From NCBI RefSeq assembly GCF_030732845.1, contig NZ_JASHKA010000002.1, positions 124,001-188,000 on the forward strand: a DNA stretch of 64,000 bases, given 5' to 3'. Source of the DNA: Roseibium sp. MMSF_3544 (GTDB lineage Bacteria > Pseudomonadota > Alphaproteobacteria > Rhizobiales > Stappiaceae). Shown here piece by piece: positions 25,184 to 60,415 of this stretch. The stretch's first letter is position 1. Each line of letters begins with the position of its first letter. The position numbers were made by a program, and so were the translations under genes. The notes under the pieces are model-generated. The model was not told the origin of the DNA and did no database searches. It was given only the letters and a program-made list of their open reading frames with translations.

Positions 25184-25323
25184 AGCTACCCCCGACAAGC
25201 TCTCAATTGATAGATCAAGTTACTGAGGTGAATCCAGATGCGAAGTGCCGATTCACACTTTTTTAACGCAGTAGAGAGGGAAAACAACTGTAAAACAAGA
25301 TGGCAAACGTGGGAGCTAAAAGA

Positions 25324-42097: not shown

Positions 42098-42661
42098 TTA
42101 ACTGGCGCCAGTTTCGATGAGTTGAACCAGGCGCCGCATTCTGGAGCCGGCGAGGTGGACGTTATCAAGCACCGCTTCGTCGATCTCGTCGCTTTCCGAC
42201 AATTCCGCTGGACCACCAAGGCTGTTTTCCAACGCCTCGTTCCTTGAGCTGACGTCCAGTCGATGGGTCGTTTCGCGTAACCGGTCTGAGAGAAAGAGGG
42301 CCAAAGCCCGGTATAGGCGGGCGGCAAAGGCAATGTCCGTTTGAAGGCGGTCATGGATCAGAGGCAGAGAAATTGACAGATATCGTCCTGGCTGTTCAGC
42401 AATCACGGATGTCGACGGCGGCTTCTTTTCGACCAGCGACATCTCCCCGACAACATCACCTGCACCAAGACTGGCAACGGCGGGACCTTCTCCCAGAAAA
42501 ACCCCGAACTTGCCTTCCAGCAAAATATGGAAGTGTGTCAGAGGCACGCCCGCGTCGACCAACTTGTCGCCGACCTCAATTGCGTGAACTTTCCCCTCGG
42601 ACGCAAACCAGACCACGTCTTCTTCATTCAGGCTGCCCAAGATATAGAGGACTTTTTTCAT
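42098..42661 (-). CDS. Cyclic nucleotide-binding domain protein (Crp-like sensor without clear DNA-binding domain)
   Basis: The first ~120 residues form a cNMP-binding fold (GKFGVFLGEGPAVASLGAGDVVGEMSLVEKKP, quoted in part: GAGDVVGEMSLVEKKPPS), with a helical tail and no winged helix. The conserved phosphate-binding Arg is not obvious. ATG at 42661 has GAGGAG upstream; 26 bases separate it from the ABC exporter stop, so it is the last gene of the exporter operon. It may regulate export or sense a nucleotide; this is inference. Confidence 0.75.
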   Translation of the reverse strand: MKKVLYILGSLNEEDVVWFASEGKVHAIEVGDKLVDAGVPLTHFHILLEGKFGVFLGEGPAVASLGAGDVVGEMSLVEKKPPSTSVIAEQPGRYLSISLPLIHDRLQTDIAFAARLYRALALFLSDRLRETTHRLDVSSRNEALENSLGGPAELSESDEIDEAVLDNVHLAGSRMRRLVQLIETGAS

Positions 42662-42687
42662 TATCTGGCTCCTCTGCCAAATCCGGT

Positions 42688-44937
42688 TCAAACCGTTTGC
42701 CGCTTCGCCATCTTATGGAACAAGGGGCTGGTTTCGAGGAGTTCTTCAAAAGAACCGTTTGCCTTGATGCGCCCGTCGTCCATGAGAAAGATCCTGTCGG
42801 CGTTCCTGATGGTGCTCAATCGATGGGCGATCACTATTCGGGTGATATTGAGTTTCTCCAAACTCTCGGTCACGACCGCTTGCGTTCTGTTGTCGAGCGC
42901 ACTGGTCGCCTCGTCGAGAAACAAAATGGCCGGATTGAGAACCAGGGCCCTTGCGATCAGAACTCTTTGCCTTTGGCCTCCCGAAAGGCTTGACCCACCT
43001 TCGGTAAGGGGTGTGTGCAAGCCCATTGGAAACGCCTTGAGATCACTTTCCAAGCCGGCCGCCAAACATGCTTCCAGACAGCGTTCGTGATCGATATTCG
43101 TTGCACCGCGAATGTTGTCCAGAATTGTTCCGGCGTGGACTTTTCCGTTCTGCGTCACAACGCCGATCTGCCGTCGAAGCAGGGGCAGATCAAGTTTTGA
43201 GATGTCCTGATTGTCGAACGTGATCGTTCCGGAAAAGGGCTTTTCCAACCCAAGCATCAAGCGCATGACCGTCGACTTGCCGGAGCCGGAAGAGCCGACG
43301 ATGGCGACGTGCTCGCCTGCCTCAATCTTGAAGGAGACACCCTTGATGACTTCCAGGCCTTCCAGATAACCAAATCTGACCGATGAGAGTTCGATGGAAC
43401 CCTTCAGCTTTTTGGGTTTTGCAGCCTGGTGCCCCACTTCCGGCTCCGTTTGCAAGATAACCTGACCGCGTTTCCATTCCGGCTGCAAGGCAACGAGGTC
43501 CAGCGCCAGTGTCGCCAGTCCCTGGAACGCGAATTGAAAGCTCCCGAAGGCTGCCAGAAAGGCTATGAAAGTCCCCGCCGAGCTCTGTGAAGAAGACCCG
43601 AGAATGCTCGCGGAGAACAGGGCAATCAGGCCGAAGCCGGCATAAAGCTCAAGGAAGCCGGCAAACTGTCCGGAGCGATGTTGCGTGCGCAAGATGGCTG
43701 CCTGGGAACTGGCAAACTTGTCCGCCCAACGGGCGAGGAACCGGACTTCGCTGGCGGAGGCCCGCAACTTCGCGATGCCGGTAAACACCTGAAAGACGTA
43801 GCCGGAAAGCCAGCCGCTGAGCTCTGCGATTTTCAGATGATCTCGTCTCAGATAAAGGCCGAGAGAGATACTTGCAGCAACGAGAATTATGACATAGCCG
43901 AGGGCGATGAAGGCGAGCTGCGGGCTATAGAAGTACATCAGCGCGAAGTAAAACCCCGAAAAAATAATCGTAACCAGACTGTTCAGTACGATCGAAACGC
44001 ACATCTCGCGCAAAGAAAGAAGCCCATGATACCGGGCTTGCAGGTCTCCGGAGGAGTGGGTGTTGAAGAAGCTGACAGGAAGGGCAAGCAGCGTGTTCCA
44101 GATTGCAGAGGCAAACAGTTGCTTCGATTTGCCATTGGCCCGAAGGACCAATCGCTGTCTGGTAACCGAAAGCAGATAGTTGAGCACCGCAATGACCGCC
44201 AAAGCCACCCCGAGTTGAGAGAGCATGTTCCGCTCAAGACCCGGGATTAGCGTGTCGACAACGACTGCGGTGGCAATCGGAACCAGGGTCCCCAGAGCTG
44301 CAATCAAACCCCCGAAGATTGCCGCGCCGATCAGTTCTGAACGGATCGAAGGCAGAATGAACCAGGCCAGCGACAAGGGGGAGCTGATGTTTTGCGGCAA
44401 GCTGGGATGAATTTCAAAGGCGATGGGCTTTAGTTGCCGGGCGATCTTTTCGGTTACCTTGATCGGTTCGGGATTACCGGGAGCAACAAGGTCGTAGCCG
44501 CCTGACCGGCGCCGAATGAGGGCAACAGCCGATTGTTCTTCTGAAGCTGCTCCATCGCTTTCGGCAGCTTCAATCATCAGGCCCGCAAGGTTTCCATGGT
44601 CCTTCTCCCACCAATTGGCGGGAAGAACGATTTGCCGCGTTCTAGCGCCGAAAACATGCGCAGCATCTTGAATTGTAACCGTGCTAAGGCCGCTGAACGC
44701 GGATCGGGTGCGCGGAACCGCCTCGAGCCCATTGGCTCTGAATATCAGGTCGACGACTTGCGCCTGTTCAGGCAAATCCTGTCTGAAAGTGACCTTTCCA
44801 AGACGCTCGACAACTCGATCAAGGCGGGAAAAACTTCTTTCAAGACGGTCCGATTGACTGAGCTTCGCAGGCCGGGCCGCCTCCAGGCTCGCCGCTTCGG
44901 AACCGCTTCGTTTGTCCTGATCGGGCTGTTGCAACAT
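42688..44937 (-). CDS. ABC exporter (NHLM-type second ABC, permease + ATPase)
   Basis: Fused exporter of 749 residues. Residues 1-180 form an N-terminal domain without peptidase residues, followed by a six-span membrane domain (about 200-480). The ATPase contains VGSSGSGKSTVMR, LSGGQRQRVLIARA and ILFLDEATSALD. The arrangement matches the second exporter (NHLM_micro_ABC2 type) of bacteriocin-like systems. It follows the C39 exporter after 6 bases, so the two probably work as a pair. Confidence 0.88.
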   Translation of the reverse strand: MLQQPDQDKRSGSEAASLEAARPAKLSQSDRLERSFSRLDRVVERLGKVTFRQDLPEQAQVVDLIFRANGLEAVPRTRSAFSGLSTVTIQDAAHVFGARTRQIVLPANWWEKDHGNLAGLMIEAAESDGAASEEQSAVALIRRRSGGYDLVAPGNPEPIKVTEKIARQLKPIAFEIHPSLPQNISSPLSLAWFILPSIRSELIGAAIFGGLIAALGTLVPIATAVVVDTLIPGLERNMLSQLGVALAVIAVLNYLLSVTRQRLVLRANGKSKQLFASAIWNTLLALPVSFFNTHSSGDLQARYHGLLSLREMCVSIVLNSLVTIIFSGFYFALMYFYSPQLAFIALGYVIILVAASISLGLYLRRDHLKIAELSGWLSGYVFQVFTGIAKLRASASEVRFLARWADKFASSQAAILRTQHRSGQFAGFLELYAGFGLIALFSASILGSSSQSSAGTFIAFLAAFGSFQFAFQGLATLALDLVALQPEWKRGQVILQTEPEVGHQAAKPKKLKGSIELSSVRFGYLEGLEVIKGVSFKIEAGEHVAIVGSSGSGKSTVMRLMLGLEKPFSGTITFDNQDISKLDLPLLRRQIGVVTQNGKVHAGTILDNIRGATNIDHERCLEACLAAGLESDLKAFPMGLHTPLTEGGSSLSGGQRQRVLIARALVLNPAILFLDEATSALDNRTQAVVTESLEKLNITRIVIAHRLSTIRNADRIFLMDDGRIKANGSFEELLETSPLFHKMAKRQTV

Positions 44938-44943
44938 GGTCTG

Positions 44944-47100
44944 CTAGGCCTCGATCAGTTCTGCGTAGCGATTGTTCAATGCAATCAGCTCGTCATGGGT
45001 GCCACGTTCCGCCACGTTGCCGTTATCGAGAACCAGTATCTCATCGCAGTCGCGAATGGTGCTCAGTCTGTGGGCAATCACAACGAGAGTGATGCCGCGC
45101 GCCTTGATGGCACGCATGATATCCACCTCGCAGATTGCATCCAGTGCGCTGGTTGCCTCGTCCAGAACGAGAATGTCCGGGTTTGTCGCCAGGGCGCGCG
45201 CAATTTCCAGCCGCTGTCTTTGTCCTCCCGAGAAGTTCACACCATCCTGTGCGACGAGGCTGTCATACCCGCCGGCGCGCGACGAAATGACGTCGTGAAT
45301 CTGAGCGTCCTTGGCAGCTACTATGATCTGCTCCTCTGAGAGCGTTTCGTCCCACATGGACACGTTTTCCCGGACGGAGCCTTCAAACAAGACAATCTCC
45401 TGGTCCAGATAGGAGACGCAATTCGCCAACTTGTTTCGAGGCCAGGACCGGATTGGCATTCCCCCGATCCGGACCTCTCCGGCTGTCGGCGTCAGAAGTC
45501 CAGCCACCAGGCGGCCGATTGTCGACTTGCCCGATCCGGATGCGCCCACGAGCGCGACACTGCCACCAGGCGCTACACTAAGGGAGAAACCCTCTATGAG
45601 CGGATCGGCCAGGGGCAGGTAGCCGAAGCTTATGTTTTCGACCTCAAGAGTTCCTGTATCTTCGGGGGCAATGCCTCGCTCAAGCGCCGGCTCAAAACGT
45701 CGGTCGACCGGATGGCGCACAACGTCTTCGATCCTGTCCGTGTAGGAGCGAATTTCCTGAAACGATGTCACCATGCCAGTGAGCGTGAGCAGGGGAGCGG
45801 AAAAGCTGACTGCCAGGCTTTGAAATGCAACCAGCGAGCCGATGGTCATCGATCCGTTCATGACCGCTCGCCCACCCAGCACAAGAATGGCGGCCGTTGT
45901 CAGCGCATTGAGCAGCACCGGAAGGTTTTGGGTCAGCAGAAGGCGTTTTCCCAGGTCCTGCTCGATATCGAGAATTTTTGTCTGAGAGCCTGCCCACCTT
46001 TGGAAGAAGGCATCTTCCGATCCTGCTGCCTTGTAGCTCTCCATGTCCGCCAGTCCGGACAAGGCCACGCCATGGAGTTTCCCGCCCTCAACCGACAGTT
46101 TGCGGTGGCCTTCGGCCGCTTGTTTTCCCGCCAGGACGACAGCAACAATGCTGAACAGGGAGAGCAAAACCACGCAGGCGGTGATGAGCGGGCTGTAACT
46201 CAACATCAGCCCCAGAAAAAACACGCCTGTGATCAGACTGAGGAAACTGGCAGCAATATCACCGGTAAGGAGCCCGGCAAGCCCCGTGCTCAGGTCAAGC
46301 CGTGTGGCAATGTCGCCGGCAAAGCGCGTTCCGAAAAACGCAATCGGAAGCTTCAGCAGATGAATGAACATCCTGCGTGTTTCCCGAACTGCCAATTGCG
46401 CATGCGCTTTGATGAGCTGAAGTCGTTGCAGCTCCGACAAAGCGAAGCGCAACAGAAATGTCAGCGCCATTCCCCCAAGCAGCGGCAAAAGCCAGTTGTC
46501 ATGGCCCTGGACAAGGATCTGGTCGACGAAAACGCTTGAGAAAATGGGAATGGCGAGCCCGGGCAGGATGAGCGCAAGGCTCGCGAGAAAAACGAAAAAG
46601 ATACTGCTTCGCAGCCCCTTCGTGCGTGCGAACAGTGCCTTTGCGAGACTTGGACGGTCGTCCGTCTTGACGAAGTCGGGACCGGGCTCGAACACAAGCA
46701 CGACCCCGGTGAACATCGCGTCGAAGCGTTCCTGATCCACCTTGCGTCTGCCATTGGCTGGATCATTGAGAAAAAAGTGCGTTTTGTTGAAGCCTTCCAG
46801 AACCAGGAAATGGCAAAAGTCGACAAAGATGATTGCCGGCAGCGAGATCTTTGCAAGCATGTCCGGCTCCGCCTTGAAGCCTTTCGCCGTCATGCCGTTT
46901 TGTCGTGCTGCTTTCAGGATATTGGTGGCCTTGGACCCGTCTCGCGAGACGCCGCATGCTTCGCGCAAGGTCTCCAGCGGCAGAAACCGGCCGTGATGTG
47001 CCAGGACCATGGAAAGGGAAGCTGCGCCACATTCTGCCGCTTCCATTTGCAGTACGGTTGGTACCTTTCGCCGATTACGCACCCAGCCCGGAAACCCCAC
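44944..47100 (-). CDS. C39 peptidase-containing ABC exporter (NHLM-type first ABC)
   Basis: Exporter that cleaves double-glycine-type leaders while exporting the peptide. N-terminal C39 domain: catalytic Cys in MEAAECGAAS, His in FCHFLVLEG and Asp in FFLNDPANG are all in place. Membrane domain and ATPase (GASGSGKSTIG, FSGGQRQRLEIARALA, ILVLDEATSALD) follow. GTG at 47100 is chosen, 4 bases beyond the HlyD stop; other starts at 47181 (overlapping) or GTG at 47082 are possible. The C39 region resembles the NHLM_micro_ABC1 family. Confidence 0.9.
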   Translation of the reverse strand: MGFPGWVRNRRKVPTVLQMEAAECGAASLSMVLAHHGRFLPLETLREACGVSRDGSKATNILKAARQNGMTAKGFKAEPDMLAKISLPAIIFVDFCHFLVLEGFNKTHFFLNDPANGRRKVDQERFDAMFTGVVLVFEPGPDFVKTDDRPSLAKALFARTKGLRSSIFFVFLASLALILPGLAIPIFSSVFVDQILVQGHDNWLLPLLGGMALTFLLRFALSELQRLQLIKAHAQLAVRETRRMFIHLLKLPIAFFGTRFAGDIATRLDLSTGLAGLLTGDIAASFLSLITGVFFLGLMLSYSPLITACVVLLSLFSIVAVVLAGKQAAEGHRKLSVEGGKLHGVALSGLADMESYKAAGSEDAFFQRWAGSQTKILDIEQDLGKRLLLTQNLPVLLNALTTAAILVLGGRAVMNGSMTIGSLVAFQSLAVSFSAPLLTLTGMVTSFQEIRSYTDRIEDVVRHPVDRRFEPALERGIAPEDTGTLEVENISFGYLPLADPLIEGFSLSVAPGGSVALVGASGSGKSTIGRLVAGLLTPTAGEVRIGGMPIRSWPRNKLANCVSYLDQEIVLFEGSVRENVSMWDETLSEEQIIVAAKDAQIHDVISSRAGGYDSLVAQDGVNFSGGQRQRLEIARALATNPDILVLDEATSALDAICEVDIMRAIKARGITLVVIAHRLSTIRDCDEILVLDNGNVAERGTHDELIALNNRYAELIEA

Positions 47101-47104
47101 CCGC

Positions 47105-48379
47105 TCAGTCCTTCCACAGGGCTTGGAGCCGGTCAGCGAGGCCGGGCATGGCGATATCGGCAACCGGTTCGCGGGCAACAACGAAAGCTGCGGTCAAAAG
47201 CGTGCCGGGGCGGATTTCGTCATCAGGTCCTTGGCTTGACGACCAGCTTAACCCGCTGACCGTCGATGGATCTCTTTCAAGCCGAACCCGGACCTCAAAC
47301 GAACTCGACCCGCCAGAAAGTTCCTGGGCCAGACGTTCGTTGCGCAAATTGGTGCGAATGCTTTCGAAGCTGGCCGGCAACGCGGAAACATAAACGACGT
47401 GACCGCGAATGAACCCGTATCTGGATTTCTTGAACAGGCTGGGAACAACCTCGGCAAGCATGCCTGGTTTGATCTTCTTGCCGTCCACGGAAGACACATA
47501 GATGAGAGCCTCGGTTTCCAGTTCATCGCCGGGCATCTCGACTGCCAAAGTTGCAATCGCTTCACCGGCGTCGATCACGTCGCCTTCATTGACCCGAACC
47601 TCGAGGACCTGGCCGCTATGAGGGCTTGTAATCGCCTGCTCAAGATTGAGACGGCGCTTCATGCGTTCAATGGACCGGATTTGCTGCTCGATCTTGAGGT
47701 TCTCATCAAGCAGGGCGAGATCCCGCTCAACCTTTTCTTCCAGAAAACTTGACCGCATGGAACGGCGTTCGTTTTCCAGTCCCAGCAACCGTTCCCGGGC
47801 GTTGGCCAGCTCAAGCTCGACCGCGATAAGGCTCGCCGGTGTCGTCAGCTGTTTCTCAACAAGCGCAGCGATGCTGTCAACGCGGCTTTCAAGCAACTCC
47901 TTCCTGCGGATCATCATTTTTTCAACTTGATCCAGCCCTGCGATTCTGGAGTTCCTCACGTTGGATTTCAGCTCTTCCTGTTCCTGGGAAAAGGCAACGA
48001 GGGAGGCGAGCCGTTGTTGGGAATCCTCCAGGGCGGCTTCGGCGTTCGCCAGCTCCAGCTTGAGCCTGGTTCGATTGAACCTGGCGATGACCTGGTCTTT
48101 TTCGACATAGTCTCCAACGGCAAGGTTCAGCCGGTCTATGCGTCCGGCTGCCTCCGAGGAGACTTCATTCAAGCCCTGTTGCTGAAGGAGAATACCGCCA
48201 CCGCTGACCTTGACAGGGGCATCTGCAAACAGGGCCCAGACAAAGGCGAGCAGGATGCACGCAATCAGGATCAGAAGCGATATCCACGCACCCGCGGAAA
48301 CGAGTGAATAGGGGCGGTCCAGCTGTTCGGGCGACGAAAGTCTGTCGAGGGCAGCCTGTCTGTAAATTTGTTTGGTCAT
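47105..48379 (-). CDS. HlyD-family membrane fusion protein of the peptide exporter
   Basis: Type I secretion adaptor (424 residues): one membrane segment (about 28-52), a lipoyl-like half with GRIDRLNLAVGDYVEKDQ, a long coiled coil (about 95-230), and a second beta-barrel half SGQVLEVRVNEGDVIDAGE. It resembles the NHLM-type HlyD. First gene of the exporter operon on the minus strand. Confidence 0.9.
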   Translation of the reverse strand: MTKQIYRQAALDRLSSPEQLDRPYSLVSAGAWISLLILIACILLAFVWALFADAPVKVSGGGILLQQQGLNEVSSEAAGRIDRLNLAVGDYVEKDQVIARFNRTRLKLELANAEAALEDSQQRLASLVAFSQEQEELKSNVRNSRIAGLDQVEKMMIRRKELLESRVDSIAALVEKQLTTPASLIAVELELANARERLLGLENERRSMRSSFLEEKVERDLALLDENLKIEQQIRSIERMKRRLNLEQAITSPHSGQVLEVRVNEGDVIDAGEAIATLAVEMPGDELETEALIYVSSVDGKKIKPGMLAEVVPSLFKKSRYGFIRGHVVYVSALPASFESIRTNLRNERLAQELSGGSSSFEVRVRLERDPSTVSGLSWSSSQGPDDEIRPGTLLTAAFVVAREPVADIAMPGLADRLQALWKD

Positions 48380-49019: not shown

Positions 49020-49607
49020 GTGAACGTGCTCGAAAAACGCGTGATCGAGGTCCTTGCACCCTATTCAGTTCAGATCAGATGTGTGGAGTCAGAGCCGGGC
49101 ACATTTGATTTTCATCTCATCAATCAGGGAACGCATATCGCCGCGGACCGGTTCAAGGACCTGTTTTACGTGCATGAGCCTCACGGGTGGCGGACACCCA
49201 AGGTTCCTGTTGTCCAGATTTCCATTCCGCACTTTTTTGTCTGCGACACTGTCTGCTACTTGAACATGCTGCCGGCTTTTGCGTCTCCCGACGGGGTCAG
49301 GGCGCCGGGTATGCTGGTTTCCGGCCGCTACCCGATGCACAAGTGGCCGCGCAGCATCAACTTCGCGTTCGAGTGGAGCGACAAAGACGTCGATTTCAAG
49401 ATGTCGCGGGGGCAACCGCTTTGCTATCTGCTGCCGGAAACAGAAGATCCCGCCGGTCAGATAGAACTTGTTCCGGCAAAGATGACACAGGCGCTGGCAA
49501 CTTACCGCGCACGCTTTGAAGGCGTCACACAATACACGCCGAATGCCGAAAGTTTGTTCCAGGAGATTGAAAAATACAGACCGGAAAAGTTGCTTGAGGA
49601 GATTTAA
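49020..49607 (+). CDS. Hypothetical protein (possible DUF6065-like)
   Basis: About 195 residues from the GTG at 49020; an upstream TTG at 48879 would add 47 residues of low-quality sequence. Recognisable stretches are ISIPHFFVCDTVCYLNMLP, SINFAFEWSDKDVDF and RGQPLCYLLPETEDP, which remind me of DUF6065 proteins; this is a weak resemblance. No signal peptide or membrane segment. It lies between the exporter and the methyltransferase and may belong to the cluster. Confidence 0.6.
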   Translation: MNVLEKRVIEVLAPYSVQIRCVESEPGTFDFHLINQGTHIAADRFKDLFYVHEPHGWRTPKVPVVQISIPHFFVCDTVCYLNMLPAFASPDGVRAPGMLVSGRYPMHKWPRSINFAFEWSDKDVDFKMSRGQPLCYLLPETEDPAGQIELVPAKMTQALATYRARFEGVTQYTPNAESLFQEIEKYRPEKLLEEI

Positions 49608-49742
49608 CCGGGACTTCGAGGACGCCAGAAAAAAGTCTGCAAGCGGCTACGGCCTGCGAAGACACGCTCGAAATCTGAGCCTGCCCCGGTTTCCCAGGGA
49701 ACTAGTCGATCTGGAAACACTGATTTTGCGAGGATGTAACCT

Positions 49743-50033: not shown

Positions 50034-50061
50034 ACTGAGTGTGCCGTGGTGCAGGCAGGTC

Positions 50062-50652
50062 CTATTTCATCGCCTGCGAGGCGACGTCGCGTTTCTGGAT
50101 CACCAGTTGCCCTGCATGACACAACACGATCTGACATTTTGTTGCGTGCGCGCCCAAAAAGGAATTTGAGGCCCGAACAACGCTGTCTTCCCACCAGCGT
50201 CCCAAAACGTAGTCGTCGAGACAAATCAAACCGCCGTCCCGGCAGACCCGGAAGCTCTGTGCAAGATCTGCGGCAACAGCCTCGTAGGTATGGTCGCCGT
50301 CGATGTAAATGAAATCCAGGGAACCGTCCGGAAGCTTTGCGAGTGCGTCCTCGGAACGTTCCGCATGCAAGATCACACGGCCTGTTGAAATGTCTTCCGA
50401 GAACCGGTTTTCGACGCCGGACCTGATCGCAGTCATGTCTTCAGCGCTTTGTGCGCCATACCAGGCCTTGTCATAGGTCGGCTCGTGACGGGTTCCGAAC
50501 GGGTCGATCAGGTGCAGGCGGCGGGGCTTTGCAATTGAAAGGATTCGTTCGCTGAAGTCGCCTCTCCAGACTCCAACTTCGGCGCCTTCCGCATGTTCTG
50601 GAAACAGGGACAAGATGTGGTCGCGGAAAGATTGCACTGTGGTCTCCGTCAT
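50062..50652 (-). CDS. Class I SAM-dependent methyltransferase (Methyltransf_24-like)
   Basis: The protein (196 residues from ATG at 50652) has the SAM-binding loop EGAEVGVWRGDFSERIL and the acidic LDFIYIDGDHTYEAV strand typical of Methyltransf_24 enzymes that act on sugars or glycan precursors. A TTG at 50697 would add 15 residues. Probably acts on a carbohydrate or small molecule in the surrounding glycosylation/sulfation cluster. Confidence 0.82.
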   Translation of the reverse strand: MTETTVQSFRDHILSLFPEHAEGAEVGVWRGDFSERILSIAKPRRLHLIDPFGTRHEPTYDKAWYGAQSAEDMTAIRSGVENRFSEDISTGRVILHAERSEDALAKLPDGSLDFIYIDGDHTYEAVAADLAQSFRVCRDGGLICLDDYVLGRWWEDSVVRASNSFLGAHATKCQIVLCHAGQLVIQKRDVASQAMK

Positions 50653-50958
50653 CCTGAAAGGCGGAAAATCCGGCTGACCGAAACCGCTGCTATCCAAACA
50701 TGCAACAACAGGATGATGTTGTATACTTCAGTTGATTATCTGGCGCTGAAACCTGAATGCGCGCGTCTGATGGCGATGTTTTTGTTTGCAAGTTGTTAGG
50801 GTACGGACCCATTCATTTGGCTCAACTGGTAGGGATGAATTTGCTCGGATACGAAGCGCAAAGCTCCAGGAAAACCGTTTGTCGGCCGTTCCTTGCAGCT
50901 CATCGCCGTTTGATGAGCCAATTCAACCAAGTGAATGAGCCTCGACCTTAGGCCCTCG

Positions 50959-53375: not shown

Positions 53376-53427
53376 ACGCAGGTCTGGACAACGAACCTAG
53401 GATGCAGACCGAAAGTCGCCAAGACAG

Positions 53428-54195
53428 TCATTCGATACGATAGCCAAAGCGCTCCAGCGCACCGGCATAAGGTGCCAGGCCTTCCACGATCGAGGCTCTG
53501 GCACTGGTTGAAAGCGTTTCGATGAGACCACGGTTTCGATCCGCAAAGTCTCCGATCGGCGCTCCGATCGGTTCGCGCCGCTCACGCACCTTGCTGGCGT
53601 CCAACACACTGCCCAAGACTGTTTCGGGATCGCTGGTCAGATCTTCATAACTGATCCAAATGTCGCTGACCTCATGCAGGTCGGCCTGCATCGCGAACCG
53701 TTCTCCGCAAATTTTCCCCAAGAACCGAAAGTAGGCCGCAGCATCCGGAAGATCCACGCGCCCGTACGGGCACCAGTTGCATTGGACGACTTCAGGAGGA
53801 TAGCGCTGCGACCAGCTCGCACAAATTGCCAGAGGATGCCGTGTCAGCAAGACCAGGGACTGGGGGAACTCTGAAAACGCTTCCATCAGGCGATGCATCC
53901 GGCAAAGGTTTGGCGGTGATTTTTCAACGACCACGCGGGCATTTCGCGCCCTGGTGCGGCAGGCCTCCAGCCAGATGGGGCGTATCTCATCGAAGTTTTC
54001 CGGCACAGGGGGGTTCCACCGGGTCTCCCCGTTGTAAAGCTGTGGCGTGAGCCACTGTCCTTCACATCGGTCCTCAATGCCCGTGAACCCCGGCACGGAG
54101 GTCAGAAGACGGGCCAGCAAAGTGGACCCGGAGCTGGGCTGGGCTCCGACAAAAATCCAGGAGGGTGTCTTTCGCATACCGCTAGACGGTTTCAT
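53428..54195 (-). CDS. Sulfotransferase family protein
   Basis: Second sulfotransferase, different from the one at 52647. The 5'-phosphosulfate loop is GAQPSSGSTLLARLL, the 3'-phosphate site TRHPLAICASWSQR. Length is ~255 residues from the ATG ending at 54195; ATG at 54177 or an upstream start at 54270 are alternatives. A truncated, deleted copy lies at 55753-55940. Confidence 0.82.
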   Translation of the reverse strand: MKPSSGMRKTPSWIFVGAQPSSGSTLLARLLTSVPGFTGIEDRCEGQWLTPQLYNGETRWNPPVPENFDEIRPIWLEACRTRARNARVVVEKSPPNLCRMHRLMEAFSEFPQSLVLLTRHPLAICASWSQRYPPEVVQCNWCPYGRVDLPDAAAYFRFLGKICGERFAMQADLHEVSDIWISYEDLTSDPETVLGSVLDASKVRERREPIGAPIGDFADRNRGLIETLSTSARASIVEGLAPYAGALERFGYRIE

Positions 54196-54403
54196 CGGAA
54201 TTTTCCGGTGGCCAGGGGCGTTTGGCTTGTCCAAATCCCACTGGCCCAAAAACAAGAGCGGCAGGACCATCGGCCCCGCCTCACTTCATGTTGCAATGCA
54301 GAAAATGTCGGCTGCGAGCCCTTTGTGGCCCGGCTCATGTTGTGCAAGAGGCTCATCTCAGCCCCCGGGCGCTGAGGCCCAGGGATCGCGCAGGGACGTC
54401 CGA

Positions 54404-55456
54404 TCATGGGCGCTGCATAGGTTTTTCGGTTAACGCGTCCCAGGCGTCTTCTTGCGTTCGCGCGGCCTGCAAGCTGTCCCAGACCTCTGCCACAAAGGGG
54501 TCAGCCGCGGCCATCTCGGAAACAAGCGCGTCCCAGGCTGCCCGGAGGCTGTCCAGTGTCTCGGGGCTGTAAAGGCGGACGTCCACGCCTTGTTCTGCCA
54601 GTTGTGCGACGGCGGCGGCTTGTGAGTATTCCATCCGCAGGACCGAACGCATCGCGTTGGTTCTGGCCGCCATGTCGATGATCGTGCGCTGGCTGTCTGT
54701 CAGGCCGTCCCAAACGTCGCGGTTGATGACCAACTCAATCATCGTCGAGGGTTGGTGCCAGCCGGGGAAATAGTAGAAAGAAGCCACCTGCGGAAATCCC
54801 AGCGCAAGATCCACCTGAGGAAAGCTGAACTCGGTCCCGTCGATGACGCCACGTTCAAGCGATGGAAAGATCTCTCCGCCTGGGATCAGCACAGTATCCG
54901 CACCTATGCTTGCCAGCACTTCCGAGGCCAGCCCCGTCCAGCGCAGCTTGAGCCCGTCAAAATCGTTGGTCCCTTCGATGGGGGTGTTGAACCAGCCGCC
55001 CGATTCCATGCCGGTGAAGGTTAGTGGCATAGTCACAAGGTTAAAGCCCGCATCGTCATACATACGCTGATTGAGCTCGAGCCCGCCGCCTTCGTAGAAC
55101 CAGGCCATATAATCGAGCGCCTGCGGACCGAACGGCATCGACGTGAAAAACGACGCAACGGGCAAGGACCCATGAAGGTATGCCGCAGCGGTATAGCCCG
55201 CTTCGATCTCGCCGTCAGAGACCGCCTGTTGAATGTCGAACGGTGGGACAATCGCGCCAGGTTCCGCCAGCTCTATCTGGATCGTCCCGCCGGAGGCTGC
55301 CTCGACCTCTGCTTCGAACTGCCGGATCGTGTTTATGACCGGAAGGCTGGTCGAAAAAGCAGATTGCAGGGTGATTGTGATATCCTGCGCAAGGCTCGGC
55401 CCGCTCATGGCCACAAAGGGTAATGCAGCTAGGGCCAGTTTCGTCATCTTTGTCAT
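54404..55456 (-). CDS. TRAP transporter solute-binding protein (DctP family), orphan
   Basis: Binding protein of 350 residues with a signal peptide (about 1-24, PSLAQ before DITITLQS) and DctP motifs (DFDGLKLRWTGLASEVL, ERGVIDGTEFSFPQVD, quoted in part). GGAGG lies 7 bases ahead of the ATG. No DctQ or DctM genes are adjacent, so it must use a remote pair or have another role. It lies between an intact sulfotransferase and its broken copy, which suggests it arrived with or after that duplication. Confidence 0.87.
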   Translation of the reverse strand: MTKMTKLALAALPFVAMSGPSLAQDITITLQSAFSTSLPVINTIRQFEAEVEAASGGTIQIELAEPGAIVPPFDIQQAVSDGEIEAGYTAAAYLHGSLPVASFFTSMPFGPQALDYMAWFYEGGGLELNQRMYDDAGFNLVTMPLTFTGMESGGWFNTPIEGTNDFDGLKLRWTGLASEVLASIGADTVLIPGGEIFPSLERGVIDGTEFSFPQVDLALGFPQVASFYYFPGWHQPSTMIELVINRDVWDGLTDSQRTIIDMAARTNAMRSVLRMEYSQAAAVAQLAEQGVDVRLYSPETLDSLRAAWDALVSEMAAADPFVAEVWDSLQAARTQEDAWDALTEKPMQRP

Positions 55457-55752
55457 GTTGTCCTCCGGGACTGTTGCGCTAGTTTCTTAGGGTACGCGAT
55501 AGTCGATGCGGCGCATTGGATCATGCTCCGTTACTGGCCGGACTATCACCGACATCTCTACCTCAAATTCGCTTCTTGAAAGGAGCTTCCGCTACAACTC
55601 TAAAGATCGCAAGGGCCGGAAAAGCTGGCCTTGGCGAAACGCGCAGCGTCACGCAATTTGGGCTCCATAGCCGCATTCGCCACGCGCACAACCAACGGCT
55701 GCTTCTAAATCTGGGTCAGAAATGCTTGACGTTTGGATCAGATTTGAATGAT

Positions 55753-55940
55753 GTGATTTTTCAACGACCACGCGGGCATTTCGCGCCCGGGTGCGGCAGT
55801 CCTCCAGCCAGATGGGATGTACCTCATCGAAGTTTTCCGGCACGGAGGTCAGAAGACGGGCCAGCAAAGTAGACCCGGAGCTGGGCTGGGCTCCGGCAAT
55901 AGCCAAAAGAGTGTCTTTCGCATAACGCTAGACGGTTTCA
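55753..55940 (-). pseudogene. Sulfotransferase remnant (partial duplicate of 53428-54195)
   Basis: Nearly identical to part of the sulfotransferase gene: 55753-55843 matches 53916-54006 and 55844 onward matches 54097 onward. A 90-base (30-codon) segment is missing exactly between two copies of CCGGCAC (54000-54006 and 54090-54096 in the intact gene). The remnant keeps the GAQPSSGSTLLARLLTSVP loop and the RNARVVVEK segment, but lacks the rest. Similarity continues weakly to about 55968, into the end of the FkbM gene. Confidence 0.9.
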
Positions 55941-55951
55941 CCCATGTCTTC

Positions 55952-56740
55952 CTATGGCCAGGGACGGTCTTGCCGTGAGGTGATCTCGTCTTCTCCAATC
56001 TCGCCGCCAAACCGTTCCGCCGGGATGCACAGCATGTTCACGGAGAATATTCCCGGGAAGATATTCTCGCTTTCTCCGAAAAAATTGTCGGGGTTGAACA
56101 GCGGCGGTGTGCTCCACATGAGCCGATAATCAAGGTCGAACAAGTGCCCGATAAGTTCAGCGGAGTTCTCCGACCGGTCGTTTTCAATCATCATCAACGG
56201 CCGGTACCGGCTGATCAACCCGGATGCACCTTTGAGAACGGCAAGCTCCATTCCCTCCACGTCGATCTTCATCAGATGAAGCGCGCCAGGATCAAGGACG
56301 TCATCGAGGCGGACCTGGGCAATCTGTTCGCCGCCGGTCGAAGTCGAAAGCGCAACACCGCCAAAATTGCCTTCCGTCGAATAGTCGGTCTCCGGCAGGC
56401 AAAGCGCGTCTGCGCTATCCCCGACCGCGACATTGTGGATCGTCACATTGCTGGGCTTTACTTGCGCGAGATTTGCTTCCAGCAGGCGGAAAAGCCGTGG
56501 TTGTGGCTCAAATACGTGCAGCGTGCCGCGTTCGGTCAAATGGCGTGCCAGCGGGACGCTTTGCGTTCCGATGTGAGCGCCCACCTCAACAACCGTATGT
56601 CCTGGTTTGCACAAACGGAGCAGAAAGGCCGTTTCAAGCTCAGAGAATTCGCCGTATTTGGCGAGCGATGCGCCGATCCAGGTGTCGTGACGCAGAAATC
56701 GAAACCGGCCATGCCGTCCATCGATTTGAGCCTCACACAT
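55952..56740 (-). CDS. FkbM family methyltransferase
   Basis: SAM-dependent methyltransferase (262 residues from ATG at 56740). VVEVGAHIGTQSVPLARHL is the SAM loop, HVFEPQPRLFRLLEANL follows, and LDPGALHLMKIDVEGMELAVLKGA is the FkbM hallmark (quoted in part: LMKIDVEGMELAVLKGA). A start at 56848 would overlap the upstream gene by 116 bases. It overlaps the upstream gene by 8 bases here. Likely acts on a sugar or other hydroxyl-bearing product. Confidence 0.87.
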   Translation of the reverse strand: MCEAQIDGRHGRFRFLRHDTWIGASLAKYGEFSELETAFLLRLCKPGHTVVEVGAHIGTQSVPLARHLTERGTLHVFEPQPRLFRLLEANLAQVKPSNVTIHNVAVGDSADALCLPETDYSTEGNFGGVALSTSTGGEQIAQVRLDDVLDPGALHLMKIDVEGMELAVLKGASGLISRYRPLMMIENDRSENSAELIGHLFDLDYRLMWSTPPLFNPDNFFGESENIFPGIFSVNMLCIPAERFGGEIGEDEITSRQDRPWP

Positions 56741-57515
56741 TTTCGTAAACACCCAGGCCTGGTGGATGGCCCCTCGGGTATCGCATACCGTATCGGGGAG
56801 GCTCATAGTGGTTTTCGGCGGTGTAGGGTGCACAAAAGTGATCTCCAATCAGATCATTGCGCACAAAAAAGGCATTCACGCCGGAAAAGCAGCAGCCCAC
56901 AAGCGCATACCCTTTTTCGCTTCCAAGCTTTTCCAATGCGGAGAGGCTTGCGCCGAAAAAACTGCTCCCGTCCCAATGTTCGTGCGGTTCATACGGCACC
57001 GTCAGGGAAAGGGGAGGTTTCAAGGTGGCGTTATATTCAATGACAACGACACGGGGCCGGATTGCCTCAAGCGCTTTCCAGAGCCAGTAGTCGTGGTAGT
57101 CCGTGTCGATCGAAAGCAGATCCACATCGCCATCGTCGCGGAACAGCTCGTTGATATTGTCGGGCGTGACCACGGCGTTCTGGCAGCGCAATCGGCCAGC
57201 CTTCAGGAAAACGTCAAATGTACCGCGAATGTCTTCGACGGCTGAGGCGTCGCTTTCGCACCAGTGCCCACTCCAACCCGTCAACAGCAAGAATACAGAA
57301 TTGCATTCGAGGCCGTTCTGCACGCCAAACTCTATAAATCGGCGATTTTCAACGCCGATACGGCGATAGATCTCTTGCAGGATCCCGTCTTCGTCGTTTT
57401 GCGAGTAAATCTTTGCGCCGGACGCAAGGAGACGCCCGGCCTCGCGGTACCGAGGCCGATCGAGCGTTTCTTCATAATAGGCAAGCCAGCCGGGATCGCC
57501 GGTGCTGAAACTCAT
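56733..57515 (-). CDS. FkbM-like methyltransferase-family protein
   Basis: 260 residues. IYSQNDEDGILQEIYRRIG and FIEFGVQNGLECNSVFLLL are conserved in a family related to FkbM enzymes; DVDLLSIDTDYHDYWLWKAL resembles the DVE(G)-type second motif. The protein is not a canonical methyltransferase, so function remains uncertain. Its 5' end is repeated as a broken copy at 58043-58143. Confidence 0.7.
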   Translation of the reverse strand: MSFSTGDPGWLAYYEETLDRPRYREAGRLLASGAKIYSQNDEDGILQEIYRRIGVENRRFIEFGVQNGLECNSVFLLLTGWSGHWCESDASAVEDIRGTFDVFLKAGRLRCQNAVVTPDNINELFRDDGDVDLLSIDTDYHDYWLWKALEAIRPRVVVIEYNATLKPPLSLTVPYEPHEHWDGSSFFGASLSALEKLGSEKGYALVGCCFSGVNAFFVRNDLIGDHFCAPYTAENHYEPPRYGMRYPRGHPPGLGVYENV

Positions 57516-57555
57516 ACCCTGGACCCTGGTTGGCGGCTCATTGCAAGCTGAGGTC

Positions 57556-57807
57556 CTAACGCTTCAGCTTGTCGGTGCCCTTAATGCTTGGAGTCGAGAT
57601 CGGCTTGTCAGGGTCACCCGCAAACAGCGTGGCAGCAGCAAAACCAGGGCTCGCATTAATGGTGTCTTTGTTCAACTTTGCGTCAATGGTTAGCCCCTTT
57701 GTGGCCATTGCCTGGGTGAACTTTCCGGCTCCAACCACATCGTCCAGCTGTTCATCGGTTAGCTGCTCGGGCTTTTCTTCAGTTGAATCTTTTTTTTCGT
57801 CAGACAT
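57556..57807 (-). CDS. Secreted peptide precursor B with C39-type leader
   Basis: 83 residues. The leader is highly charged (MSDEKKDSTEEKPEQ) and contains LTDEQLDDVVGAGKF, with the leader-type double-small motif Gly-Ala at residues 26-27. C39 cleavage after Ala27 would release a 56-residue core without Cys or Tyr. The end is STPSIKGTDKLKR. It matches the peptide at 58184-58432 in leader and C-terminal end, with a variable centre. Substrate of the exporter pair at 42.7-47.1 kb by inference. Confidence 0.75.
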   Translation of the reverse strand: MSDEKKDSTEEKPEQLTDEQLDDVVGAGKFTQAMATKGLTIDAKLNKDTINASPGFAAATLFAGDPDKPISTPSIKGTDKLKR

Positions 57808-57831
57808 TTTTTCTCGCTATCGTTTGATGTC

Positions 57832-57852
57832 GACCGCCATTAAATTGCGGTC
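57832..57852 (-). promoter_or_regulatory. Conserved hairpin upstream of peptide gene B
   Basis: GACCGC (57832-57837) pairs with GCGGTC (57847-57852), 9-base loop, immediately after the broken TPR stop and 25 bases before the peptide start. A matching hairpin precedes peptide A. It could regulate translation of the peptides. Confidence 0.45.
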
Positions 57853-57980
57853 ATGGAAAATTTAGTCCGCTGCTCAATGCTGCGACTATAGCGTCTTCTT
57901 CGGCTGATTGGCAAACCTCGAACCATCGCTCAGTCCAGTCGGACAGCCCATTGCAGACGCGCGAGACGAGCCTCGCCCGG
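57851..57980 (-). pseudogene. Remnant of the TPR-glycosyltransferase 3' end
   Basis: An open frame here ends RVCNGLSDWTERWFEVC...EDAIVAALSSGLNFP. It corresponds to the last ~40 residues of the TPR-glycosyltransferase (RVRDALSAWTEQWQEVC...KDAIVHGLSERTHFP). It lacks any upstream TPR or transferase coding sequence, so it is a duplication scar rather than a gene. Confidence 0.85.
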
Positions 57981-58042
57981 TGCTCACAATGGGATAGCAG
58001 GGCGTCCGCTTCCTGTTCTGTGATGTTGCCCCGTAGAGCGCT

Positions 58043-58143
58043 GTGCAACTCGCACGCAAACGTCCGGCCTCACGGTATCGAGGCCGGTCAAGTGTTTCTT
58101 CATGGCAGGCAAGTCAACCGGTATCGCAGGTTCCGAAACCTAT
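58043..58143 (-). pseudogene. Remnant of the FkbM-like gene 5' end
   Basis: Corresponds to the first ~30 codons of the gene at 56733-57515. The start codon is changed (ATG to ATA at 58141-58143), and a stop appears at codon 10. The segment EETLDRPRYREAGRL is still recognisable. It is a scar of the tandem duplication. Confidence 0.85.
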
Positions 58144-58183
58144 ATCCGGACCCGGACTGCAGGCTGACTTGTCAGCTGAGATC

Positions 58184-58432
58184 CTAGCGTTTCAGTTTGT
58201 CGATGCCCTTGACGCCGGGCGTTGTGATTGTGTTGGCGCGGCCACCAAAAATCGTATCACCGACAACACCGGGACCTGCAAACAGCGTGTCGTTGTTCAC
58301 CAACGCGTCAACGCTGATCGCTTTCGTGACACGGGCCTGGGTGAACTTGCCGGCACCAACCACATCGTTCAGCTCTTCGTCGGTCAGCTGCTCGGGCTTG
58401 TCTTCAGTTGAATCTTTTTTGTCGTCGGACAT
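58184..58432 (-). CDS. Secreted peptide precursor A with C39-type leader
   Basis: 82 residues from the ATG at 58432, chosen because the upstream context aligns with peptide B; a GTG at 58444 is also in frame. Leader MSDDKKDSTEDKPEQ then LTDEELNDVVGAGKF, Gly-Ala at 26-27. The predicted core has 55 residues, no Cys and no Tyr, is Gly/Thr/Asn-rich and ends TTPGVKGIDKLKR. The LTDEEL...VVGAG leader is of the type handled by C39 exporters in NHLM/Nif11-like systems. Confidence 0.75.
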   Translation of the reverse strand: MSDDKKDSTEDKPEQLTDEELNDVVGAGKFTQARVTKAISVDALVNNDTLFAGPGVVGDTIFGGRANTITTPGVKGIDKLKR

Positions 58433-58458
58433 TTGTTTGCTCACTATCGCTTGATTTC

Positions 58459-58479
58459 GACCGCCATAAAATTTCGGTC
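58459..58479 (-). promoter_or_regulatory. Conserved hairpin upstream of peptide gene A
   Basis: GACCG (58459-58463) pairs with CGGTC (58475-58479), starting inside the stop codon of the TPR-glycosyltransferase. The same structure, with one more pair, precedes peptide B. Confidence 0.4.
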
Positions 58480-59899
58480 ATGGAAAATGTGTTCGTTCAC
58501 TCAATCCGTGCACTATAGCGTCTTTTTCGGCGGGTTTGCAAACCTCCTGCCACTGCTCCGTCCAGGCGGAAAGCGCGTCGCGAACGCGCGAAATGAAGCT
58601 GGCCCAGCTGTCATTTTCGTCGAAGCGAAACAATCTCATGCCGGGATACCATGGCGTCTCAAGCTGATCGGTCATGAAACGCCAGTCCGCCCTGGGTGTG
58701 AGGAGTGTCCAGCACGGCACGTCGAGGCCCCCGGCCAGATGACAGAATGAGGTGTCAATCGTGATGACGAGATCAAGCTGCTGAACAAGCGCGGCGTCGT
58801 CGGCAAAGTCCTCAAGGTCGCCGGTAAGATCAACGATCAGGGCTTCAGCTCCGTGTTCTTCGATGTCGCCTTGCGGAGCACCGCGTTGAAAGCTGTAAAA
58901 GTCCACACCGGCCACTTCCGTCAATCCGACAAAGTGCGAAAAGGGACAGCTTCGGTTCAGTTTTTCCCGGTTTCCGGACCAGGTCAAACCGACTTTCGGT
59001 TGACCGGTTTGAGGAAGAACGCATGAAGGTTGCCCGGCCTTGAGATAGGGGAAGCGGGTGGCGATCTGATCATAACCTGTCCCGAGTTTGGCCGGCAGGG
59101 AGGGAAAGGCGACACTCACATGGTGTGGGTGCGTTGGTTCTCCAACGGCTACAAAGGGGATCTCCGGGAAACTCGCCTGAAACAGCCTCAAGAGAGGTTT
59201 CTGCACCAGTCCGCAAATGGGCCCGTCAGCGCGCTCCTGGAGGGGCAGCAGAAAACGTGAGAACTGCAAGACATCGCCCAGTCCCTGCTCGGCATGAACC
59301 AGAAGGCTGCGCCCCTTTAGGGCGTCTCCCTGCCAGGCCGGGGCGACGTGTTCGCTCTGCGTGTCGGGTTCCAGGCTCAGGCGTATTTCATAGTCTTGAA
59401 AACCTTCCTGAATTCGGCCGAGATGCAGCCGGGTTATGCCCAATGTCAACCGTGTTTCAGTATCGTCCGGTTCCAGGTCCAGCGCAGCCTTGAGTTCTGT
59501 TTCCGCCTTTTCGAAATGGCGGTTGGCGAAGTGCGCCATACCCAGCATTTTCAGGTAGATCGGCTCTTCGGGGTCGAGCCTGTGCGCCTGCTGGAAGGCA
59601 TGAAGGGCAGAGACATTGTCTGCGATTTCAAGATAGGCGTTTCCAAGGTTCGACCAGGCGTCTGCATCCTCGGGCTCATCCGCAAGGGAGCGGCGATAGC
59701 AGCCGATCGCAGCTCGCGGATAACCCATGGCGCGCAGCGCGACACCCAGATCGTTATAGACCGCGCTTTGCCGGGGATGGTTCGCGAGTGCCCTTTTGTA
59801 GAGTGCTCGGGCCTTTTCGACCTCACCCTCAAGGTGCAGTTGACGTGCCTGCTGATAGAGCTCGACGGCCCGCTCTTCATCCTGTTGAGTGTCTGCCAT
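58478..59899 (-). CDS. TPR-repeat protein with C-terminal glycosyltransferase-like domain
   Basis: Residues ~10-170 hold four or five TPR units (ALYKRALANHPRQSAVYNDLGVALRAMG-type repeats). A GT-B-like half follows, with VHAEQGLGDVLQFSRFL and LVITIDTSFCHLAGGLDVPCWTLL, both typical of TPR-linked glycosyltransferase proteins of flagellar and surface-glycan loci. ATG at 59899 is used; GTG at 59929 is an alternative. It is directly upstream of peptide A (45 bases), so they may be co-transcribed. Confidence 0.82.
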   Translation of the reverse strand: MADTQQDEERAVELYQQARQLHLEGEVEKARALYKRALANHPRQSAVYNDLGVALRAMGYPRAAIGCYRRSLADEPEDADAWSNLGNAYLEIADNVSALHAFQQAHRLDPEEPIYLKMLGMAHFANRHFEKAETELKAALDLEPDDTETRLTLGITRLHLGRIQEGFQDYEIRLSLEPDTQSEHVAPAWQGDALKGRSLLVHAEQGLGDVLQFSRFLLPLQERADGPICGLVQKPLLRLFQASFPEIPFVAVGEPTHPHHVSVAFPSLPAKLGTGYDQIATRFPYLKAGQPSCVLPQTGQPKVGLTWSGNREKLNRSCPFSHFVGLTEVAGVDFYSFQRGAPQGDIEEHGAEALIVDLTGDLEDFADDAALVQQLDLVITIDTSFCHLAGGLDVPCWTLLTPRADWRFMTDQLETPWYPGMRLFRFDENDSWASFISRVRDALSAWTEQWQEVCKPAEKDAIVHGLSERTHFP

Positions 59900-60010
59900 C
59901 TTGGTACCGCCCGGTAGCTCGCCCGTCACGGCAGGTGCTTCATATTGCAGCCCGATTGCCGTGCACCTAGAATTTCGTGCTTGTTCGGATTAGAGGCAGG
60001 TGGCCGAGAA

Positions 60011-60415
60011 ATGGCAAACATAAAAATTGAGGTGTCTCCGGGAGACTTTTTCGACAGGCTCACAATCCTGCGAATAAAGAAGCTGCGTTCCGACGCTCCG
60101 CAAACCGATGCTGCCCAAGCGAAACTCGCAGCCTTCGAAGCACTTCGGCGAACGCATTTCCACGATGGGCAAGAGCTGGAAGCACTTGAGGAGAAGCTGA
60201 AGAAACGCAACGAGGACCTTTGGGACCTTGAAAACCGGGTGCGCACGTTCACGCATCCCCTTCAGTCTTCTCAAATGGAAGACTATGTTTCCGTCGCGCG
60301 GGCGATATTCTCCTTCAACGAGGACCGGTCCGCGCTCAAACGCGAAATCGACCTCCTCTTTTCCGATGACAGTGATGAAATCAAGTCATACGACGCCGAC
60401 GCGGGGAACGAATAG
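60011..60415 (+). CDS. DUF6165-like hypothetical protein
   Basis: 134 residues: IKIEVSPGDFFDRLTILRIKKLR followed by a long charged helix is typical of a small family often found beside sulfotransferase and glycan genes (assigned as DUF6165 from memory). No enzymatic motif. ATG at 60011 chosen over TTG at 59945. Divergent from the TPR-glycosyltransferase. Confidence 0.65.
   Translation: MANIKIEVSPGDFFDRLTILRIKKLRSDAPQTDAAQAKLAAFEALRRTHFHDGQELEALEEKLKKRNEDLWDLENRVRTFTHPLQSSQMEDYVSVARAIFSFNEDRSALKREIDLLFSDDSDEIKSYDADAGNE

Follow-up and report, generated by a model that had tools for sequence, protein, structure and literature searches.

The window analysed here, 64,000 nucleotides of Roseibium sp. 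MMSF_3544 (contig NZ_JASHKA010000002.1, positions 124,001 to 188,000 of the forward strand), carries an NHLM-type peptide exporter operon and a second apparent operon in which two short peptides with double-glycine leaders lie among genes for a glycosyltransferase-like tetratricopeptide repeat (TPR) protein and FkbM-type methyltransferases. Judged from the sequence, the peptides are probably exported by this NHLM system, whether decorated or undecorated. More tentatively, and at somewhat less than an even chance, we propose that the window is the export hub and main biosynthetic operon of a small double-glycine-leader peptide family, whose precursors would be decorated, cut and exported here. 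The locus is real and coherent; present evidence places it as a variant among the double-glycine peptides exported by NHLM systems and does not make it a category of its own.

Two paralogous precursor peptides

An earlier sequence-only reading of the window had described two paralogous leader peptides, and both are present: their products are 63% identical, start with MSDDKKD, and each carries a double-glycine box.

57556-57807, minus strand: precursor peptide 1 (P0001, 83 residues); leader ends QLTDEQLDDVVGA, then GKF
58184-58444, minus strand: precursor peptide 2 (P0002), starting at GTG 58444 or ATG 58432 (82 residues); leader ends QLTDEELNDVVGA, then GKF

Together with P0003, a third paralogue on another contig (C7, see below), the precursors are 83, 82 and 84 residues long (P0001-P0003), with leaders of 27 or 25 residues ending VVGA or VTGG. 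The cores of 56, 55 and 59 residues are devoid of Cys, Tyr and Trp and contain 10, 8 and 12 Ser/Thr, respectively.

In a six-frame scan of open reading frames (ORFs) of 40-200 residues across the whole window, P0001 and P0002 both scored 12 for a C39-type cleavage box and were the only ORFs to reach 11, with none of 20 mononucleotide shuffles giving 12 or more; the score was devised after the peptides had been seen. All three paralogues share Leu at positions 2 and 7, Val/Leu at position 10, and G-G/A in a short ORF. The published logo for NHLP and N11P leaders, as given in an excerpt of PMC2887384, has acidic residues at positions 1, 4 and 6, Leu at 2 and 7, Ser/Thr at 3, and Val/Leu at 10. 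The boxes of the three peptides are close to this logo, the departures being Gln instead of an acidic residue at position 1 (P0001 and P0002), and Asn and Ala at positions 3 and 6 (P0003).

The precursors lie outside the NHLP and Nif11 families with which NHLM exporters are normally associated, as neither TIGR03793 (NHLP) nor TIGR03798 (Nif11) matches P0001-P0003. Genome-wide, the former search was empty at the loci of the three peptides, and the latter gave one match of 13.1 bits, elsewhere. Neither P0001 nor P0002 passes the cut-off of any Pfam or NCBIfam model, the best matches being to lantibiotic models at chance level. Hairpins 5′ of the two peptide genes are no better than in shuffled sequences (z 0.55 and -1.18), and a promoter scan found 3 promoters versus 1.7 expected.

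The exporter operon

The exporter genes are ordered HlyD – C39-ABC1 – ABC2 – cyclic nucleotide (cNMP)-binding protein and span 42098-48379 on the minus strand (ABC, ATP-binding cassette).

47105-48379, minus strand: NHLM HlyD-type membrane fusion protein; TIGR03794 285.8 bits, over the cut-off of 156.2
44944-47181, minus strand: NHLM ABC1 with C39 peptidase; TIGR03796 923.9 bits, over the cut-off of 853.3; PF03412 match
42688-44937, minus strand: NHLM ABC2, permease/ATPase lacking a peptidase; best model TIGR03797, 667.9 bits, below the cut-off of 709.4
42098-42691, minus strand: short cNMP-binding protein, 197 residues, last in the operon; PF00027 42.4 bits

Assignment of the trio to TIGR03794, TIGR03796 and TIGR03797 therefore stands for HlyD and the C39-ABC, whereas ABC2 has TIGR03797 as its best model yet falls below the cut-off. 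The proposed cyclic-nucleotide-binding gene is also supported by its PF00027 match; its product scores 91 bits with TIGR03896, below the cut-off of 161.05, over model positions 134-314 of 317, and in another genus of the same family, five genomes have ORFs 39-42% identical to it downstream of the exporter. A scan of the genome contigs with ABC2 yielded 11 distant ABC transporters and was uninformative.

The aligned C39 stretch of ABC1 contains a cysteine box (QMEAAECGAASL / VLQMEAAECGAASL). Three C39 domains were found in the genome (PF03412, E<=1), and the box is missing from the aligned stretches of the other two; C39-like domains of the HlyB type typically lack a cysteine box. Because ABC1 has the sole cysteine-box C39 domain found, it is the most likely cutter of all three peptides, including P0003 on C7, if any C39 exporter cuts them.

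The usual maturation enzymes had been noted as absent, and this holds for the window ORFs scanned, none of which gave a lanthionine or cyclodehydratase match (the 1-42 kb part was scanned incompletely); no LanM, YcaO or radical SAM genes were recognised near the peptides.

Tandem duplication of a peptide-enzyme unit

The peptide genes form part of an apparent minus-strand operon (59929-55952) in the order TPR-glycosyltransferase (TPR-GT) – peptide 2 – peptide 1 – FkbM-like protein – FkbM methyltransferase.

58478-59929, minus strand: TPR-GT; N-terminal TPR_2 71.5 bits, weak GT9-like C-terminus (PF01075 16.8 bits, below the cut-off of 22)
57808-58183, minus strand: duplication scar between the peptides, with remnants of an FkbM-like N-terminus and a TPR-GT C-terminus
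56733-57515, minus strand: weakly FkbM-like protein, overlapping FkbM; PF05050 12.5 bits, below the cut-off of 22.7
55952-56848, minus strand: FkbM methyltransferase; PF05050 68 bits, TIGR01444 90.3 bits, over the cut-off of 37.7
about 55650-56010, minus strand: decayed duplicate of sulfotransferase ST3 (see below), directly downstream of FkbM, with ST3-like stretches in a three-frame reading; PF13469 13.9 bits, below cut-off

A gap of 33 bp separates TPR-GT from peptide 2 (45 bp if counted to the ATG of the latter). Its description as a TPR-glycosyltransferase is upheld for the TPR part, which passes the cut-off, and the GT9-like part falls below it. Its matches in the PDB include the TPR regions of OGT, and some of its relatives are annotated as TPR-containing glycosyltransferases. 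AlphaFold models of TPR-GT and the FkbM-like protein are of low confidence (pLDDT, the predicted local distance difference test, 41.8 and 38.8).

The two peptide regions are joined by a 505-column alignment at 76% identity. Because of this alignment, and because enzyme-end remnants lie between the peptides, we conclude that a TPR-GT/peptide/methyltransferase unit underwent tandem duplication, after which the surplus enzyme ends decayed and both peptides stayed open. Both window peptides are under purifying selection: overall, nonsynonymous (dN) and synonymous (dS) divergence between them are 0.22 and 0.82 (dN/dS ~0.26), with dN and dS of 0.063 and 0.355 in the leader and of 0.314 and 1.17 in the core. 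The decayed ST3 copy after FkbM suggests that a sulfotransferase was formerly part of the peptide operon.

A third paralogue in a tRNA-bounded segment

P0003 was detected on contig C7 by a two-row model that excluded it (28 bits, E 1.6e-5). A gene for a 368-residue TPR protein lies 61 bp upstream, and a sulfotransferase gene faces P0003. The sulfotransferase (PF00685 38.4 bits, cut-off 22) belongs to the same Pfam family as ST1 of the window, its blastp overlap with ST1 is just 10 residues, and it has no tblastn match to plasmids at 1e-5. The TPR protein scores 16.3 bits with TPR_2, below the cut-off of 27, and blastp at E<=1 does not align it with TPR-GT. Among six of its relatives that were scanned, four (L089, L092, L093 and L095) are over TPR cut-offs and two (L086 and L090) are not; where annotated, its plasmid relatives are TPR proteins only, bar one place with another name. 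One relative (L092 7130-10230, genome G787) overlaps an ABC transporter gene whose product shares 33.7% identity with ABC1 across 398 columns, outside C39.

These genes lie in a segment of about 3.5 kb (within L012, C7:142000-153152) that extends from a tRNA-Gly(GCC) gene (L012 7489-7563) to a 58-bp partial copy (L012 11018-11075). The repeat comprises the tRNA from position 24 to its 3′ end plus six bases, and is identical at 52 of 58 positions; the 25-base tRNA 3′ end, with up to four mismatches allowed, was matched in 0 of 30 mononucleotide shuffles. Integration at a tRNA gene usually leaves such a partial tRNA repeat at the far end of the segment; no integrase was recognised in the segment, its remaining small ORFs having been judged by eye. 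Linkage of glycosyltransferase, methyltransferase and sulfotransferase genes to the peptides is seen in the window, and C7 provides a second case that parallels it in part.

Distribution of the peptides and the exporter

Members of the peptide family were detected in 1 of 45 genomes of the genus (the source genome), 2 of 397 of the order (the source genome and G142), and 2 of 385 of the class (the source genome and G492). The G492 match (E 0.008) lies inside a 701-residue open frame and was set aside as chance. P0002 and P0003 had no tblastn match to plasmids at E<=10, and no match was found in viral contigs scanned with the three-peptide alignment.

In G142, two short ORFs lie in tandem, and their leaders end VLPDEDLDQVTGG. 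Its exporter, searched for after the peptide match, includes an NHLM HlyD (295 bits) and an ABC1 (960.5 bits), both over cut-off. G142 ABC1 is 50% identical to that of the window, and the best ABC1 at each of 12 loci of the family is 34.5-44.9% identical. In an ABC1 peptidase tree of 24 sequences – the window, G142, the 12 family loci, and 10 of 19 plasmid records – the window and G142 are sisters with support of 97/98, and the exporters of Bradyrhizobium and Ensifer discussed below are not sister to that of the window. As to co-occurrence of peptide homologues with the exporter elsewhere, which the sequence-only reading required, homologues are almost absent, and the single other weak match, G142, does have the exporter.

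More broadly, 13 of the 87 genomes in the family, including the source genome, have an NHLM HlyD over cut-off; in G013 and G044, peptides close to this gene are Nif11-like by eye. Of 14 genomes searched for NHLP, 6 (the five g4 genomes and G084) gave matches over cut-off.

Other genes of the window

Additional enzyme genes lie between the exporter and the peptide operon, and a tRNA gene lies beyond the latter.

49023-49607, plus strand: protein lacking a Pfam or NCBIfam family
50062-50697, minus strand: class I methyltransferase Methyltransf_24; PF13578 61.8 bits, cut-off 26.3
50935-52650, plus strand: GT4 glycosyltransferase with an extra C-terminal part; PF00534 77.5 bits
52647-53375, plus strand: sulfotransferase ST1, overlapping the GT4 stop; PF00685 39.8 bits, cut-off 22
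53428-54270, minus strand: sulfotransferase ST3; PF13469 44.7 bits, cut-off 27
54404-55456, minus strand: DctP solute-binding gene, inside the cluster
59945-60415, plus strand: protein with below-cut-off matches to DUF4254 (24.1 bits), DUF7801 (22.2 bits) and DUF6165 (18.7 bits)
60529-60602, minus strand: tRNA-Gly(CCC), 3′ end toward the cluster

The two intact sulfotransferases and the GT4 are over their Pfam cut-offs, in agreement with the sequence-only reading, which did not mention the decayed ST3 duplicate, the remnants between the peptides or the DctP gene. Of its three methyltransferase-like proteins, Methyltransf_24 and FkbM are likewise over their cut-offs, and the third (56733-57515) is weakly FkbM-like and below. 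The 49023-49607 protein has one plasmid homologue, in Paracoccus aminophilus, with an annotated glycosyltransferase and sulfotransferase within about 8 kb. No second copy of the tRNA-Gly(CCC) 3′ end was found within the window, and GC content of 0.54-0.62 marks no island by composition.

A DctM permease gene is located at 37503-38795. A three-gene run on the minus strand (20106-25198) encodes a 726-residue protein with a below-cut-off subtilase match, a PAP2 protein with a collagen-like (GTS)n N-terminus, and a TPR protein that is regulator-like by eye.

Other candidate cargo in the genome

The genome has no Nif11 leader and no NHLP leader over cut-off, and three NHLP matches below it. Two of these, on contig C61, were rejected because by eye they lie inside a nitrile hydratase alpha subunit, with a beta-like gene adjoining. 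The third is a 115-residue protein on contig C55 (TIGR03793 21.3 bits, cut-off 50.9) whose match runs no further than position 63 of the 77 in the model; no GG box was seen in this protein. The adjacent gene encodes a YcaO protein (PF02624 104.7 bits; SagD-family model 75.9 bits, below the cut-off of 219.25). These form part of a possible separate locus for a ribosomally synthesized and post-translationally modified peptide (L151, C55:56000-66500, at 2877-7169), which encodes a 663-residue protein that is regulator-like by eye, two small proteins (one of them NHLP-like), and the YcaO protein.

Proposed mechanism and alternatives

In the scheme that we infer for the chemical steps and export, short double-glycine precursors are made, their sequences being directly read. 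In the cytosol, the TPR protein encoded just upstream – TPR-GT in the window, the TPR protein on C7 – would bind the precursor through its TPR part and O-glycosylate Ser/Thr residues of the core in the manner of FlmG. The TPR domain of FlmG binds flagellin, and the enzyme, which glycosylates flagellin, carries a GT-B-type C-terminal domain, according to an excerpt of PMC7591256. FkbM-type methyltransferases and sulfotransferases would then modify the sugar; sulfation is placed there because the cores offer no Tyr for RaxX-type sulfation, and S-glycosylation and disulfides are not predicted because the cores have no Cys. The C39 domain of ABC1 would cut after GA or GG, and a HlyD/ABC1/ABC2 complex would export the product; P0003, though encoded on another contig, would be exported in trans by the same complex. 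Cutting and export are attributed to ABC1 because of the cleavage box and the sole cysteine-box C39 domain.

Several observations weigh against this proposal. The window peptides are 9 kb from the exporter, and the enzyme-peptide link comes from two loci of one genome, because the peptide family is almost confined to it. The peptide match in G142 is a weak one (E 8.7e-4, a single genome out of 397 in the order), the peptides and the exporter of G142 are split between short contigs, inspection by eye recognised no glycan genes on the 9.4-kb contig with the peptides, and plasmid ABC1s reach 48.1% identity to that of the window (Azospirillum oryzae), near the 50% of G142. On C7, the C-terminal part of the TPR protein matches no Pfam or NCBIfam family, glycosyltransferase or other. 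When a profile was built from seven relatives, the best 60 of its 350 PDB matches were all to TPR regions. This protein is perhaps glycosyltransferase-like, a reading made by eye because an RDxD stretch is invariant in all seven aligned relatives and because relatives lie near TPR-GT relatives in 3 of 11 regions (L088, L094 and L096). Using a leader pattern of the same kind as the cleavage-box pattern of the window, no leader peptide was found beside TPR-GT relatives at 29 loci (±1.5 kb; loci returned from 72 matching genomes), nor around relatives of the C7 protein in 11 regions of 10 genomes, these zero counts being reached after discarding one ORF each at L098, L084, L092, L094 and L096, judged by eye to be other genes or antisense frames and not peptides. 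The enzyme families therefore mostly serve otherwise, and their recruitment to peptides would be lineage-specific. Among plasmid homologues of GT4, one adjoins FkbM and DUF4214 genes, as expected for general surface-glycan genes, and another adjoins only a glycosyltransferase.

Export without decoration is a serious possibility, which we place appreciably short of an even chance: the NHLM system would export unmodified peptides, and the TPR-protein, methyltransferase and sulfotransferase genes would be mere neighbours, serving surface polysaccharide, flagellin or another protein. Short-leader NHLM loci with no such enzymes annotated or recognised do exist. Downstream of the NHLM exporter in Bradyrhizobium CB82 (L158 20530-27035), six double-glycine peptides with short leaders are annotated, two of the sequences being present in two copies each, and no maturase, glycosyltransferase or sulfotransferase is annotated in this stretch, whose gene table is incomplete. 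In Ensifer PDNC004 a 47-residue peptide (MSDNKKD...DELPDAALDMVSGG), apparently close in style to the MSDDKKD leaders of the window, lies 267 bp after ABC2 (L168 16709-16852) and is followed by a GNAT protein; no glycosyltransferase or sulfotransferase was recognised by eye in the stretch read of this record, which has almost no gene table, and the Ensifer ABC1 scores 829.2 bits with TIGR03796, just below the cut-off of 853.3. Relatives of TPR-GT are moreover common on plasmids (104 records), their surveyed loci have no adjacent peptides, and FlmG, an enzyme with TPR and GT-B parts, glycosylates flagellin (PMC7591256). Undecorated export nonetheless leaves unexplained the joint duplication of the peptide with glycosyltransferase and methyltransferase ends, as well as the tRNA-bounded C7 segment in which a TPR protein, a peptide and a sulfotransferase are found together.

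That the exporter serves other cargo, such as the C55 NHLP-like protein, with the window peptides exported otherwise or not at all, we regard as unlikely. The YcaO protein beside an NHLP-like protein in the same genome is what recommends it, whereas the C55 match is incomplete (63 of 77), shows no GG box and is on a separate contig, the window peptides themselves carry a C39 box, and the sole other genome in which a similar leader was found carries the sister of the window exporter. A tyrosine-sulfated peptide system like that of RaxX, in which sulfotransferase genes lie near a double-glycine peptide and a C39/HlyD exporter as in raxX-raxSTAB (excerpt of PMC6637879), is highly improbable, since the three cores contain no Tyr; Tyr sulfation of P0001-P0003 is excluded by their sequences.

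Our preferred proposal, decoration followed by export through the NHLM system, can be extended to a form that we consider doubtful: a dispersed double-glycine family with TPR-guided O-glycosylation by different catalytic domains at two loci, a methylated and sulfated glycan, and unlinked loci, including a tRNA-Gly-bounded cassette, sharing one NHLM exporter, which would constitute a sulfoglycopeptide branch of NHLM cargo. If true, glycan decoration with sulfation would join the chemistry of NHLM-exported double-glycine peptides, TPR-type glycosyltransferases (known from work on flagellin and on OGT) would be tied to small secreted peptides, and one exporter would serve unlinked cassettes in trans. 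No report of glycosylated or sulfated NHLM cargo was found in open-licence PMC papers, among the matches listed. The C7 cassette, with one TPR enzyme whose catalytic family is unassigned, one 84-residue peptide and one sulfotransferase, offers a compact test case of whether enzymes of this sort beside tiny genes act as peptide maturases.

Comparison with known systems

Glycocins resemble the proposed products in being glycosylated, leader-cut and exported, and differ in having Cys in the core and their own type of glycosyltransferase; with 0 Cys in the three cores, glycocin-type S-glycosylation was rejected. The RaxX-RaxSTAB system has, in the excerpt of PMC6637879, a double-glycine leader, a type I exporter and a sulfotransferase in the locus, whereas the cores of the window family have no Tyr, and TPR-GT and FkbM genes are present in the window. 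FlmG, also from an alphaproteobacterium, combines an N-terminal TPR part with a C-terminal glycosyltransferase-type part (excerpt of PMC7591256), as TPR-GT, with its weak GT9-like C-terminus, may also do; its substrate is flagellin in contrast to the small-peptide neighbour here, and the likeness is one of description, drawn without sequence comparison.

NHLM systems with NHLP or Nif11 precursors share with the window a HlyD and a C39-ABC over cut-offs, an ABC2 with TIGR03797 as its best model, and a similar cleavage box. The window differs in its leaders of 25-27 residues with no model match, in having no LanM, YcaO or radical SAM recognised nearby, and in an ABC2 and a cNMP protein below cut-off. 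The short-leader NHLM loci of CB82, PDNC004 and Methylobacterium pMRAD01, the last with candidate short-leader peptides beside its exporter, have the short leader, the GG/GA box and the exporter trio in common with the window; CB82 and PDNC004 differ in that no glycosyltransferase or sulfotransferase is annotated or recognised in the stretches read. Among cyanobacterial precursors, 121 of 290 were assigned to NHLP or N11P (excerpt of PMC3140520). To call the window a different class of exported peptide system, as the initial interpretation did, was an overstatement in light of these counts, of the short-leader peptides beside NHLM exporters on plasmids of Bradyrhizobium and Ensifer and, as candidates, in Methylobacterium, and of the YcaO and NHLP-like pair elsewhere in the genome. 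Because short-leader NHLM peptides occur elsewhere, such cargo is not new by itself; the unusual feature of the window is the link of the peptides to TPR-GT, methyltransferase and sulfotransferase genes.

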